From: Acidobacteriota bacterium
GTDB lineage: Bacteria > Acidobacteriota > Holophagae > Thermotomaculales > Thermotomaculaceae
DNA length: 34,387 nucleotides
Direction of reading: 5' to 3'
Assembly (NCBI GenBank): GCA_003650445.1
Contig: QMQE01000002.1
Coordinates: 1-34,387, forward strand
Positions 14,044 through 18,580 of the stretch are shown one piece after another; position 1 is the first letter of the stretch, and each line of letters starts with the position of its first letter. The notes under the pieces are model-generated. The model was given only the letters and a program-made list of their open reading frames with translations. It searched no databases and was not told the origin of the DNA. The position numbers and the translations under genes were made by a program.

Positions 14044-15294
14044 TCAATGATTGCATTGATTTCCCGCAATATTTAAATTGTCGTTCAGGTAGTCTTTTGC
14101 CACCTTTGCCGCATTGTCCGCCGCGACGCCAATGACCACGTCCACACCCTTGTCCACCAGGATTTTACGGGCACTTTCGCCCAGCCCACCGGTCAACAGT
14201 ACATGGGCCCCCTGAGCCGCAATCCAGGAAGGGATTACGCCGGGTTCATGGGCCGGAGGAGTCAGGGTTTTGGCCTCCACAATAATTTTTTTCTCCGTAT
14301 CCACGATAAAAAACGCAAAACCGGAGGCATGGCCGAAGTGGGCGTCCAGTATCCCGCTGGCATCCACAGGCATGGCAATGGTCTGGATGCGGTCATCTTT
14401 TCGAGCTGCTACGGCCGCTGCACCTTCTTTTACGGTTTCTTTTTTCACCGGCTTTTTTTCTTCCAGTTCACTCAACACTTTCACAATGGGGTCAAAGGCA
14501 GACATTTCCTTGAACGCATGCATCAGTTTTCCGTTGTCAGATGCTTCCAGAAGATTATGGTTCAGCGGCAACTTTGCCAGCAGGGGGACACCGGCGTCCT
14601 TCGCCATTTCTTCTCCACCTTTGCCGGGGAAAATTTCAATATCTTCACCACACTTGGGGCATTTGAAGGTGCTCATGTTCTCCACAATACCCACGAGATC
14701 CATGTTCATTTTTTTACAGAAGGTGATGGATTTCTGCACGTCTTCCACCGCCATTCCCTGAGGCGTAGTCACGATGATGCCCCGGGCATCCGGAACCATC
14801 TGAAGGATGGAAAGAGGCTCGTCTCCGGTTCCCGGAGGGCAATCTACCACAAGGTAATCCAGTTCTCCCCAGTCCACATCGGAAAAGAACTGTTCAATCA
14901 GGCCGATCTTCAACGGGCCGCGCCAGATCAGGGCTTCTTTGTCGTGGGGCAGTAGAAATCCCACCGACATCAGTTTCAAGTTGTCTGTCATGGGCACCGG
15001 AATCATTTTTTCCTCGTCCGTCATCCCCGGGCGCTGGTCTTTTACACCAAAAATACGGGGAATGCTGGGGCCGTGGATGTCCACATCGAGAATCCCCACC
15101 CGATGCCCTTCCACCGCCAGTTTTGTGGCAATGGATGCTGCGACAGTGCTTTTCCCAACGCCGCCCTTTCCGGACAGCACTACGATTTTATGTTTAATTC
15201 CGCCAAGGGTGTTCTTTACCTCGCGTTGCCGGGCAATCTGTTCCGGGTTTTGATTCATTCCGCACGAACCTGTCGAACAGGAATTTTCACTCAT
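14044..15294 (-). CDS. Mrp/NBP35-type ATPase fused to a NifX/NifB-like domain (MrpORP architecture)
   Basis: A 416-residue two-domain protein. Residues about 30-285 are a Mrp/ApbC P-loop ATPase, a scaffold or carrier for [4Fe-4S] clusters: Walker A SGKGGVGKST (41-50), DVDIHGPSIPR, DCPPGTGDEP, and the cluster-binding CxxC pair C212/C215 in FKCPKCGED. A Lys/Glu/Ala linker (about 285-310) leads to a dinitrogenase-iron-molybdenum-cofactor (NifX/NifB) domain (about 313-410: AHFGHASGFAFFIVD, then GGLGESARKILVDKGVDVVIG). This fusion matches Desulfovibrio MrpORP, which carries an orange-protein domain. A Cys-rich N-terminus (C6, C11) and a His/Cys end (NQCNH) may add metal ligands. GGAGG lies 7 bases before the ATG. 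It sits in the operon with both MinD-type ATPases. Confidence 0.92.
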   Translation of the reverse strand: MSENSCSTGSCGMNQNPEQIARQREVKNTLGGIKHKIVVLSGKGGVGKSTVAASIATKLAVEGHRVGILDVDIHGPSIPRIFGVKDQRPGMTDEEKMIPVPMTDNLKLMSVGFLLPHDKEALIWRGPLKIGLIEQFFSDVDWGELDYLVVDCPPGTGDEPLSILQMVPDARGIIVTTPQGMAVEDVQKSITFCKKMNMDLVGIVENMSTFKCPKCGEDIEIFPGKGGEEMAKDAGVPLLAKLPLNHNLLEASDNGKLMHAFKEMSAFDPIVKVLSELEEKKPVKKETVKEGAAAVAARKDDRIQTIAMPVDASGILDAHFGHASGFAFFIVDTEKKIIVEAKTLTPPAHEPGVIPSWIAAQGAHVLLTGGLGESARKILVDKGVDVVIGVAADNAAKVAKDYLNDNLNIAGNQCNH

Positions 15295-15327: not shown

Positions 15328-16206
15328 CTATTCAGTCTCTTCAGCCAATCGCGCTTTGAGCCGTTGCCAAACGTCGGCCACGGCCGTCGCCACCGGCGAA
15401 CCGGGAGCGGCCTCAATGACGGTCTGGCCATTGTTCATAGCCGAAATCACTTCTTCGGCATGATAGGGAATTCGGCCGAGACGGTCAAATCCGTTTCCCA
15501 CAGCCAGAGCCTCTATGTTATCGGACATTTCAGGGTGAATGTCAAACTTGTTTATCACCACACCCCCGGAAAGTTTGAAATGAGACATCAGCTCAAACAC
15601 CCGTTCCAGGTCATGGTACCCGGATATGGTGGGCTCGGTAACCACCAAAACGTAGTCCGCACCCGTTACTGACGCGACTACCGGACAGCCGACGCCGGGG
15701 GACCCATCCACGAGAATCAGCTCTTTCCCCTGCTCCACTGCCGCCGCTCTGGCATCGTTTCGGACCCGTGTCACCAGTTTACCGGAGTTTTCCTGCCCCG
15801 GGTTCAGCCGTGCGTGGAAAAAGGGGCCCAGCCTGGAACTGGAATGAAATACCGTTCCGGTGTACTGGGGTTCAAAAAGAATCGCATCGTGGGGACAGAA
15901 ATAGTAGCAGGCGCCGCAGCCCTCGCAGGCCAGCGGCTCCACCACATAATCTTCACTGATGGCGTCAAACTCGCACACTTCCCGACACTTTCCGCAAGCG
16001 GTGCATGGGTCCTGGAGAATTTCCGCCAACTTCCCCCCTGTGAAACTCTCGGTGTGATGGGTTTCTGGATCCAGAACCAGGAACATATCAGCGGCATCCA
16101 CGTCACAATCCGCCAGTACCGCGTTTTTCGCCAGTGAAGCCAAGCCCAGTACAACGGTGGTTTTACCGGTTCCGCCTTTCCCACTGATAATTACAATTTC
16201 CTTCAT
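15328..16206 (-). CDS. MinD-superfamily ATPase with inserted 2x[4Fe-4S] ferredoxin domain (second of pair)
   Basis: A 292-residue P-loop ATPase: deviant Walker A ISGKGGTGKTT (7-17), DCDVDAAD switch (33-40) and DGSPGVGCPV (Walker B/switch II). A bacterial ferredoxin domain is inserted at about 66-108, with cysteines C68/C71/C74/C78 and C94/C97/C100/C104, enough for two [4Fe-4S] clusters. Proteins of this kind occur as adjacent pairs beside orange-protein/NifX genes in sulfate reducers, methanogens and Thermotogae, and are thought to handle or sense metal clusters. Its start overlaps the stop of the upstream paralogue as ATGA. The exact substrate is not known. Confidence 0.9.
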   Translation of the reverse strand: MKEIVIISGKGGTGKTTVVLGLASLAKNAVLADCDVDAADMFLVLDPETHHTESFTGGKLAEILQDPCTACGKCREVCEFDAISEDYVVEPLACEGCGACYYFCPHDAILFEPQYTGTVFHSSSRLGPFFHARLNPGQENSGKLVTRVRNDARAAAVEQGKELILVDGSPGVGCPVVASVTGADYVLVVTEPTISGYHDLERVFELMSHFKLSGGVVINKFDIHPEMSDNIEALAVGNGFDRLGRIPYHAEEVISAMNNGQTVIEAAPGSPVATAVADVWQRLKARLAEETE

Positions 16207-17051
16207 TGCCCCAACTCCTCTTTCACCGCATCCAGAAGCCCGACAAAGCGGTAGCGATACGCGGGAAGCTCACGGATGGCCAGATTCCCGTGGGAATAGC
16301 ACTCCGCAATCTCCCGTTCCAACGGAACACTTGCTAAAAGACGGATGTTTTCGGTTTCACAGAAATCCGCAACGGAGGTGTTCCCCTCCATTGCCCGGTT
16401 TTCCACCACACCGAACTTCAGCTTCAGGCTCCGGCACATCTCAACAGCCAGTTTCAGGTCATTGATGCCGAACGGTGTCGGTTCTGTTACAAGAATCACA
16501 TAATCACAGCCCTGAATCGTTTCCACAACCGGACAGGATGTCCCCGGAGGCGAATCCAGAATCACGACACCGCCTGAAGGCAGCCGGTCTTTGACAAACT
16601 TGATAACCGGTGTCGCCAGTTCAGTGCCCACTTTCATCTCCGCTTCCATGAACAATCCACGTCCGAACTGTCCCTTCAGGAACGTGCCAATTACCTTGTC
16701 CCGTTTACCGATTGCGCCTTCCGGGCAGATTCGCATGCAGAACCCGCAGCCGTGACACATGTCCTCAAATACATAGGTCTTGTCTTTTACTGTAATCAAC
16801 GCGTGAAACTCGCAGTGGGAAGAACAAAGCCGGCACCCGGTGCATTTGTCATTGTCAATAACCGGCACCTCAATGGTAACCGGAATCGTCTCCATGATTT
16901 CCGGTTTGATAAACAACTGGCTGTTGGGTTCTTCCACATCGCAATCCGCCAGCGTTACCCCCTCACCCATATCCGCCAGCAGAGCTGCCAGATTGGTCGC
17001 GACAAAGGTCTTCCCTGTGCCGCCTTTTCCCGATGCAACCGCAATTCTCAT
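16203..17051 (-). CDS. MinD-superfamily ATPase with inserted 2x[4Fe-4S] ferredoxin domain (first of pair)
   Basis: A 282-residue paralogue of the next gene: Walker A ASGKGGTGKT (6-15), DCDVEEPNS (37-45) and DSPPGTSCPV. Its ferredoxin insert has C70/C73/C76/C80 and C99/C102/C105/C109. The two paralogues share layout but are clearly diverged, suggesting an obligate heterodimer. The ATG at 17051 is preferred to an in-frame TTG at 17057 because GAGGGGG is 7 bases upstream. It follows the DUF5320 genes after a 112-base gap holding an imperfect hairpin, which might trim expression between the small proteins and the ATPases. Confidence 0.9.
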   Translation of the reverse strand: MRIAVASGKGGTGKTFVATNLAALLADMGEGVTLADCDVEEPNSQLFIKPEIMETIPVTIEVPVIDNDKCTGCRLCSSHCEFHALITVKDKTYVFEDMCHGCGFCMRICPEGAIGKRDKVIGTFLKGQFGRGLFMEAEMKVGTELATPVIKFVKDRLPSGGVVILDSPPGTSCPVVETIQGCDYVILVTEPTPFGINDLKLAVEMCRSLKLKFGVVENRAMEGNTSVADFCETENIRLLASVPLEREIAECYSHGNLAIRELPAYRYRFVGLLDAVKEELGQ

Positions 17052-17112
17052 GCTCAACCCCCTCGCAAAACCACATTAGCACAGGAAATCCGCTTTCAAT
17101 GAACAAAAGAAG

Positions 17113-17163: not shown

Positions 17164-17502
17164 TTACTTGTCCTCATCCTTGTCTTTGGCCAACTGATCC
17201 AGCCGTTTTTTCGCAGCTTCCAGCTGACGGGAAAGGGCATCCACTTCGCTCTCGAGAAATTGCTTCTCGTCCACAGCAGGGACAGAAACCGGAACACCCC
17301 ATCCCGGAGCATATCCCCGGTGAAAACCAAAGCCACGACCCATTCCACGACCCATTCCGCGGCCAAAACCGCGGCCAAAACCACCACCGGCCATCCGGCC
17401 GCCGTTCACTGCGCCCGGAGCATCATATCCATTACAAAATCCCATTCCTCTACCGGTCCTCGGACCATAACCCATTGGCCCGGAATGATCACCATACGGC
17501 AT
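17164..17502 (-). CDS. DUF5320 glycine/arginine-rich small protein, long form
   Basis: A 112-residue protein opening MPYGDHSGPMGYGPRTGRG, the standard start of DUF5320 proteins. A Gly/Arg/Met/Phe-rich stretch (about 30-62, repeated GRGMGRG/GFGRG words) is followed by a charged C-terminal helix with coiled-coil character (about 78-110, LESEVDALSRQLEAAKKRL). DUF5320 genes sit next to NifX-like and DUF134 genes in many anaerobes; their role is unknown. The ATG at 17502 has AGGAGG 5 bases upstream. The single Cys (in GFCNGY) is typical of the family. Confidence 0.82.
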   Translation of the reverse strand: MPYGDHSGPMGYGPRTGRGMGFCNGYDAPGAVNGGRMAGGGFGRGFGRGMGRGMGRGFGFHRGYAPGWGVPVSVPAVDEKQFLESEVDALSRQLEAAKKRLDQLAKDKDEDK

Positions 17503-17544
17503 ATGCACCTCCTGTTTTATTAATAAAAAAATGAATAAATAAAC

Positions 17545-17760
17545 TTATCTGCCGCGACCGCCGCCGCGGCCCATTCCACGGCCAGAACCACGGCCCTGCC
17601 CACGGCCAATTCCGGCACCTCTGCCCTGACCGCGGTTACCGCCCAGCCTGCCCGGACCCGGTTGTTCAGAACCTGGTCTGTCGTTTCCAGCGGATTTCCC
17701 CAAACCTCTACCGGTACGGGGACCTTTTCCCTCTGGCCCTGTCTGATCACCCTGTGGCAT
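17545..17760 (-). CDS. DUF5320-like glycine/arginine-rich small protein, short form
   Basis: A 71-residue protein opening MPQGDQTGPEGKGPRTGRG, parallel to the neighbouring DUF5320 protein. It lacks the coiled-coil tail and ends in Gly-Arg words (GRGQGRGSGRGMGRG), so it is strongly basic. The ATG at 17760 has AGGAGG 5 bases upstream. It is probably an ancient tandem duplicate that lost the helical tail. An overlapping frame (17520-17750) is a shadow. The function is unknown. Confidence 0.78.
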   Translation of the reverse strand: MPQGDQTGPEGKGPRTGRGLGKSAGNDRPGSEQPGPGRLGGNRGQGRGAGIGRGQGRGSGRGMGRGGGRGR

Positions 17761-17816
17761 AAACACCTCCTACTGCACTGGCCAACTGTTAAAACAGCCG
17801 GTTTTTATATGGTTGT

Positions 17817-18137
17817 TCAGCCTTTGACAAGCTGTTCAATCGCTTCCTTTACCGTCCATGCGGGTTCAGCTTCCTTCATCTGAATCCCCGCAGTTTGCAA
17901 TACCTGTGCGGCCTTCGGCCCGAAATGGCCTGAAATCACCATTTCCACACCCTTATCCGCGATAAACTGGGCAGTCTGTGTGCCGGCCCCCTGGGCCAAC
18001 GCGATATTTTCACCGTTTCCGGTATATTCGGAATCTCCGGATTCAGTGTCATAAAAAACAAACCCCTGTGCCCGTCCAAACCGGGGATCAATCTTATCTT
18101 CCATTGTCTTTCCAAGTGTACTTACTGCAACTTTCAT
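17817..18137 (-). CDS. NifX/NifB-like (dinitrogenase iron-molybdenum cofactor family) small protein
   Basis: A 106-residue stand-alone domain of the NifX/NifB/orange-protein family: MKVAVSTLG at the start, DPRFGRAQGFVFYDTES (about 20-36) and VEMVISGHFGPKAAQVL (about 67-83). Relatives bind Mo-Fe-S or Mo-Cu-S clusters. The open frame extends 44 codons upstream, but the ATG at 18137 is the conserved family start with GGAG 9 bases before it, and the extension overlaps the DUF134 gene. It lies 19 bases after the DUF134 stop. The same domain occurs fused at the end of the Mrp protein in this operon. Confidence 0.88.
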   Translation of the reverse strand: MKVAVSTLGKTMEDKIDPRFGRAQGFVFYDTESGDSEYTGNGENIALAQGAGTQTAQFIADKGVEMVISGHFGPKAAQVLQTAGIQMKEAEPAWTVKEAIEQLVKG

Positions 18138-18156: not shown

Positions 18157-18534
18157 TTATCTTCTTTTGCTACCACAACGGTGACGGCCCATCCCTCTGC
18201 CACGGGGCATTTCCCATCCACAATCATCACAACGGCCCCGGTTAACCACCTCCACGTTTCCACCCTCAATCACCAGTGCCTTTCCAGTGACAATGGCATC
18301 GGCAACCTTGCGCCGGGCCGTCTCCACCAGCCGGGAAAGGGTGGGCCGGGAAATCTCGATCAACGCCGCCGCACCTTCATGGTCCATACCCTCAAAATCC
18401 ACGAGGCGAAGGGCCTCGAACTCATCCAGCGCCAAGATTATCTGATCCATCTCCATTGCGGGAATTCCCACCGCCTTGAACATCCTGAATCCCGGCTCCA
18501 TTCCAACGAACCGGAGTTTCCTTGGTCGCGCCAT
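18157..18534 (-). CDS. DUF134/UPF0251 DNA-binding protein, probable operon regulator
   Basis: A 125-residue protein opening MARPRKLRFVGMEPG. It has a sigma-70 region 4-like helix-turn-helix at about 40-85 (ALDEFEALRLVDFEGMDHEGAA, then ISRPTLSRLVETARRKVADA) and a Cys-containing basic tail (RCDDCGW and HRCGSKRR) that could bind a metal or Fe-S cluster. GGAGG is 6 bases upstream of the ATG. As the first gene of the operon, just behind a palindrome promoter, it is likely the local autoregulator and could sense metal or redox state through its cysteines. That regulatory role is inferred from position and fold. Confidence 0.88.
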   Translation of the reverse strand: MARPRKLRFVGMEPGFRMFKAVGIPAMEMDQIILALDEFEALRLVDFEGMDHEGAAALIEISRPTLSRLVETARRKVADAIVTGKALVIEGGNVEVVNRGRCDDCGWEMPRGRGMGRHRCGSKRR

Positions 18535-18551
18535 CCTTCACCTCCATACCC

Positions 18552-18580
18552 AATGTAATGAACATATGTTCATAATGCAA
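18552..18580 (-). promoter_or_regulatory. Operon promoter with a 16-bp palindromic operator filling the spacer
   Basis: On the minus strand, TTGCAT (18580-18575) and TACATT (18557-18552) are exactly 17 bases apart. Sixteen of those 17 bases (18573-18558) are the perfect palindrome ATGAACATATGTTCAT. Both boxes are moderate matches, as expected for a regulated promoter. It lies 18 bases before the DUF134 ATG. Confidence 0.7.

Follow-up and report, generated by a model that had tools for sequence, protein, structure and literature searches.

Among the described systems close to the locus reported here, one resembles it in the way in which DNA would be read and another in the genes that are regulated. 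Bacillus subtilis DeoR, of the SorC/DeoR subfamily, has a sugar-phosphate effector domain and binds as a tetramer to a two-part operator, the half-operator of which, ATTGAACAAAATTTCAAT, has the spacing TGAA-N6-TTCA. In the structure of DeoR with OL18, limited to a resolution of 3.7 Å, R39 contacts G4 of TTGAACA, the contacts being tentative according to the authors (PMC11229326). The orp operons of D. vulgaris (MrpORP/Orp9, Orp3, Orp4) encode MrpORP together with ferredoxin-type MinD ATPases, and they are regulated by the sigma-54 activator DVU2106 with IHF (PMC3897727, PMC6345978). DUF134 (UPF0251/COG1342) is a domain of unknown function that many anaerobes and some plasmids of enterobacteria encode. 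The original prediction from this DNA stated that its operator is not well defined, and a search of the literature, which covered few subscription papers, found no published one, most matches concerning other DUFs (e.g., DUF1343) or unrelated subjects.

The window, the whole stretch of 34,387 nucleotides analyzed here, contains an operon in the order DUF134-NifX-DUF5320-ATPase-MrpORP (Table 1), and thus the same class of genes as the orp operons, but with a sigma-70-type promoter and a predicted DUF134 operator instead of a sigma-54 activator. Its first gene encodes a member of DUF134/UPF0251/COG1342 (PF02001), the C-terminal tail of which has a CxxC motif and one further cysteine. Inspection of the sequence confirmed a perfect 16-bp palindrome, ATGAACATATGTTCAT, at 18558-18573, within the promoter that heads this operon. 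On the operon strand the order is TTGCAT-T-ATGAACATATGTTCAT-TACATT, so that the palindrome occupies 16 of the 17 bases between the two boxes, as had been claimed; the distance from TACATT to the ATG at 18534 (minus strand), originally given as 18 bases, is 17. It is the 20-bp TTATGAACATATGTTCATTA that serves as the useful unit, and the promoter conforms to the family consensus described below, a definition of the operator proposed in this analysis rather than an established one.

Table 1. Features of the DUF134 operon and its promoter in the window.
Feature	Position	Strand	Basis or remark
DUF134 operator (predicted), TTATGAACATATGTTCATTA, 20 bp	18556..18575	minus	perfect 16-bp core; same placement in L008, L007, L012
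-35-like box TTGCAT	18575..18580	minus	TTGC(A/G/T)T-17-TATATT kept in five other promoters of the family
-10-like box TACATT	18552..18557	minus	TATATT in relatives
DUF134 (PF02001) HTH protein, 125 aa, predicted autoregulator	18157..18534	minus	Pfam 94.4 bits against a gathering threshold of 27, residues 2-95; model pLDDT 88
Start of recognition helix, S62-R63-P64-T65-L66-S67-R68	18331..18351	minus	residue 64 covaries with half-site position 5, residue 67 with position 6 and residue 68 with position 4
NifX-like protein (Nitro_FeMo-Co, PF02579), likely partner or sensor	17817..18137	minus	own operator before NifX-like genes in G004/G005
DUF5320 protein, same operon	17545..17766	minus	profile match
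DUF5320 protein, same operon	17164..17508	minus	profile match
MinD-type ATPase with 4Fe-4S ferredoxin insert (Orp3/Orp4-like)	16203..17057	minus	profile match and comparison with D. vulgaris orp genes
MinD-type ATPase with 4Fe-4S ferredoxin insert (Orp3/Orp4-like)	15328..16206	minus	profile match and comparison with D. vulgaris orp genes
MrpORP iron-sulfur carrier (Mrp ATPase fused to NifX/ORP domain)	14044..15294	minus	NCBIfam NF041136, 462 bits against a cut-off of 450

ATGAACATATGTTCAT is the only perfect palindrome of at least 16 bp in the window. Taken alone, it is not beyond chance, because dinucleotide shuffling of the window yields a mean of 0.52 such palindromes, with one or more in 37% of the shuffles. 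The palindrome by itself proves nothing, and therefore the claim of an operator must rest on comparison across loci. DUF134 loci were gathered from Acidobacteriota, Bacteroidota, the Verrucomicrobiota group, the Deferribacterota group and Spirochaetota and reduced to 160 non-redundant ones (<75% identity). Among 630 palindromes of the same composition, TGAGCATATGCTCA ranked first, both overall and in each of the five phyla, and it was present at 11/14 or better upstream of 78 of the 160 loci (control median 0). The window-type TGAACATATGTTCA also ranked first overall, among 420 palindromes of its composition. Thus the motif core originally put forward holds as a palindrome but not as the consensus of the family, which is TGAGCATATGCTCA; TGAACATATGTTCA is a variant paired with the SRPT[FLV][ST]R helix. 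Refinement of a palindromic matrix gave the consensus TTATGAGCATATGCTCATAA. A score of at least 14 was reached in 103 of the 160 upstream regions, where the center of the site lies a median of 29 bp, and mostly 20-40 bp, from the start codon. Sites scoring at least 16 have a density of 4.14 per kb in the regions upstream of DUF134, against 0.048 per kb in the remainder of these loci. This comparison of densities is a fairer control than promoters of other genes (31/396 at a score of at least 7), because the latter set still includes divergent neighbors of real sites. No site was found within 160 bp of 43 of the 160 DUF134 genes, some of which have one further up, at the head of the operon.

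The occurrence of the site also follows that of the protein. Among 248 Bacteroidota genomes, the palindrome was present in 31 of the 65 with DUF134 and in 3 of the 183 without it (Fisher 4e-18), and a reversed control pattern never occurred. Two genomes of this phylum (G116, G248) have the palindrome without a DUF134 match, which may reflect a missing contig, a divergent member of the family or chance, and one further genome with the palindrome has only a sub-threshold match. In two held-out phyla, Pseudomonadota and Bacillota, represented by DUF134 genes on plasmids, a site lies upstream in nine of nine cases, so that the conservation before orthologous operons expected in the original prediction extends over five phyla and two more. 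A scan of viral contigs with the DUF134 alignment found no relatives. That the palindrome arose fortuitously in an AT-rich promoter, for which the expectation of about half a 16-bp palindrome per window speaks, is refuted by this conservation of the site across phyla and by its recurrence together with the promoter layout in relatives, and its probability is negligible.

Which protein reads the site is indicated by an unsupervised mutual-information scan of 100 protein columns against 10 half-site positions. Columns 64, 67 and 68 supply all of the six best protein-operator pairs (z 10-20, against 8.6 for the pair ranked next), and in the predicted model these residues open the third HTH helix (H63-83). 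With R68, position 4 is G in 151/158 half-sites, and with N68 it is T in 38/38; S or T at residue 67 goes with A at position 6 (34/40), and G64 with T at position 5 (32/32). A test on supported branches of the tree is underpowered, yielding just one or two pairs owing to a short DUF134 tree with weak support; for this reason, pairs from the best tree and prediction across phyla were used. Phylogenetically independent pairs on the best tree, itself weakly supported, agreed in 9/9, 7/9 (two ties) and 3/3 cases, with none opposite. When four phyla were used for training and the fifth for testing, the three residue-base pairs took the top three ranks among 300, and the prediction of T for position 4 was correct in 38 of 38 cases. 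In the held-out Pseudomonadota and Bacillota, the sites of all seven N68 proteins show T as the fourth base of each half-site. Since the operator bases covary with residues of the recognition helix, DUF134 itself very probably binds the operator and is not a bystander, in line with the original proposal of the palindrome as a candidate operator of DUF134. Three Verrucomicrobiota loci (L225, L226, L227) combine an SRSTAGR helix with a changed core, TTATGGGAATAATCCCATAA, a correlation that comes from one clade.

ArsR/SmtB-type operators have a dyad of the TGAA-N6-TTCA type. The site might therefore belong to another regulator of this geometry, of the ArsR/SmtB or SorC/DeoR type, as the five ArsR-type matches in the genome of the window and the presence of both TGAA-N6-TTCA and TTACATATGTTCAA in the B. 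subtilis DeoR operator could suggest. However, ArsR/SmtB is a different protein family, whereas the bases at these sites follow the recognition residues of DUF134 across phyla and the sites follow its presence. Moreover, contigs of G000 that carry ArsR genes hold no palindrome within two mismatches, and such an owner of the site is very improbable.

Nevertheless, DeoR is instructive as to how DUF134 may work. Foldseek places the DUF134 HTH on the operator-bound DNA-binding domain of B. subtilis DeoR (PDB 7bhy) with an rmsd of 0.6 Å over 40 residues, and also on sigma region 4, in neither case with an E-value <0.001. The recognition helix is ISRPTVSRLL in DeoR and ISRPTLSRLV in the DUF134 protein of the window, an SRPTVSR-type helix on a site that shares the TGAA-N6-TTCA spacing, and R39 and G4 of DeoR are the equivalents of R68 and operator position 4. 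These parallels in helix, half-site spacing and contact argue that DUF134 would work like DeoR at the DNA without being a member of SorC/DeoR: it has a single palindrome and a cysteine tail or NifX-like domain, and a profile search of the window protein matched only DUF134 and no sugar-binding effector domain. With region 4 of sigma-70 it has in common the HTH fold and a weak profile similarity. It lacks the other sigma regions (of regions 2 and 4, there is only a region-4-like HTH, below the NCBIfam cut-off), and it appears to read a helix-dependent palindrome, not a -35 box.

The position of the site bears on the direction of regulation. Protein matches and kinship assign the window to an Acidobacteriota MAG. 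The comparison took in four genomes from the genus of the window, one of them its own, and five from a sister genus. The other three of the genus (L008, L007, L012) have the same promoter, TTGCRT, a 17-bp spacer with the palindrome and TATATT. In the sister genus, the site is just behind the -10 box instead of in the spacer, and it directly follows the -10 box in L005, L009-L011 and L301. In the family promoters compared, the site thus overlaps RNA polymerase contacts, which suggests autorepression. DUF134 could bind and yet activate, for example by a MerR-like distortion of the spacer, since MerR sites are likewise between -35 and -10. However, six promoters have a spacer of the optimal 17 bp rather than one of 19-20 bp, the sites just after the -10 box fit a repressor, and the HTH resembles DeoR and sigma region 4, not MerR, so that activation is unlikely. 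It is highly probable that the DUF134 protein, the gene of which immediately follows, has its operator in the palindrome and that a dimer would repress its own operon. The two recognition helices of the dimer would enter successive major grooves of TGAA-N6-TTCA in the geometry of DeoR. Because the site fills the 17-bp spacer, sigma-70 RNA polymerase would be kept from the promoter once the dimer is bound, and the dimer's own operon, with the Fe-S/ORP genes behind DUF134, would be repressed.

The predicted regulon extends beyond the DUF134 gene to NifX-like genes, among others. In G004 and G005, the NifX-like gene is unlinked to DUF134 (at 204,518 and 2,142,484, respectively, in G004), and a separate copy of the operator precedes its ATG by about 30 nt; these copies (L288, L290) also lie inside TTGC(A/T)T-17-TATATT. 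The sites support control of the unlinked NifX-like genes by the same regulator. A second site, TAATAAACATATGTTCATAA, directly precedes another NifX-like gene in G000, G001 and G003, divergent to a gene for NADH:flavin oxidoreductase, and G005 has a site upstream of the same oxidoreductase, which is probably also controlled. In the genome of the window, pattern searches, the only means by which its sites were located, gave just two that differ from the 14-bp core by one mismatch or none, both heading operons with NifX-like (PF02579) genes. Sites on C1 and C10 with two mismatches were left uncounted, being without a convincing promoter position.

How the repressor would be informed is less certain. 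A signal may reach DUF134 through the NifX-like protein, acting in trans here, and/or through the cysteine-rich tail, and a bound metal or Fe-S cluster may set the affinity for DNA. We suspect that a metal cluster borne by NifX is the signal. NifX-like genes occur in the fetched stretch of 109 of the 160 DUF134 loci and share the reading frame of DUF134, as a fusion, in 38 (confirmed by Pfam in L334). Within the DUF134/NifX-like/DUF5320 cluster of the original prediction, it is thus the NifX-like gene that stands as key partner and not DUF5320. This linkage argues against a signal unrelated to NifX, perceived by the cysteine tail alone or consisting of sulfur species, with NifX merely a co-regulated product. 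Such a signal is nonetheless a possibility of some weight, if a rather doubtful one, as 78 of 101 unfused DUF134 proteins have at least three cysteines in the tail and sites in Bacteroidota precede OsmC-like and sulfide-quinone-reductase-like genes. Returning to sensing through NifX, we tentatively propose, with confidence approaching an even balance, that DUF134 may be a repressor family, spread over at least seven bacterial phyla, whose members read a CATATG-centered palindrome by a simple code of three helix residues and perceive a metal or an Fe-S- or sulfur-derived cofactor through a cluster-binding domain of the NifX type, fused or in trans; such a class was not found described in the literature searched.

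New are a concrete predicted operator, a helix code and a partial regulon for an uncharacterized family of regulators, which now has a definite candidate DNA target and whose regulation has become directly testable. The helix-to-base code and the candidate regulons can be used at once for annotating DUF134 regulons and for approaching a question that has stood since the orp operons were described, namely to which signals NifX-like proteins and ORP complexes respond. The DUF134-type palindromes of Bacteroidota (L304-L320, L328) are often asymmetric (TTATAAGCATATGCTCATAA) and also lie before genes for an SBF/ACR3-like permease, a zinc-ribbon protein and NifX, a gene set faintly suggestive of a regulon concerned with sulfur or soft metals. 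In many genomes of Bacteroidota and Deferribacterota, among them G193, G201 and G619, there are two or three DUF134 paralogues. Among 5,426 E. coli genomes, a DUF134-NifX pair occurs in one, on plasmid pKTa005_1 (L341) of a river-water E. coli, with two tandem sites.
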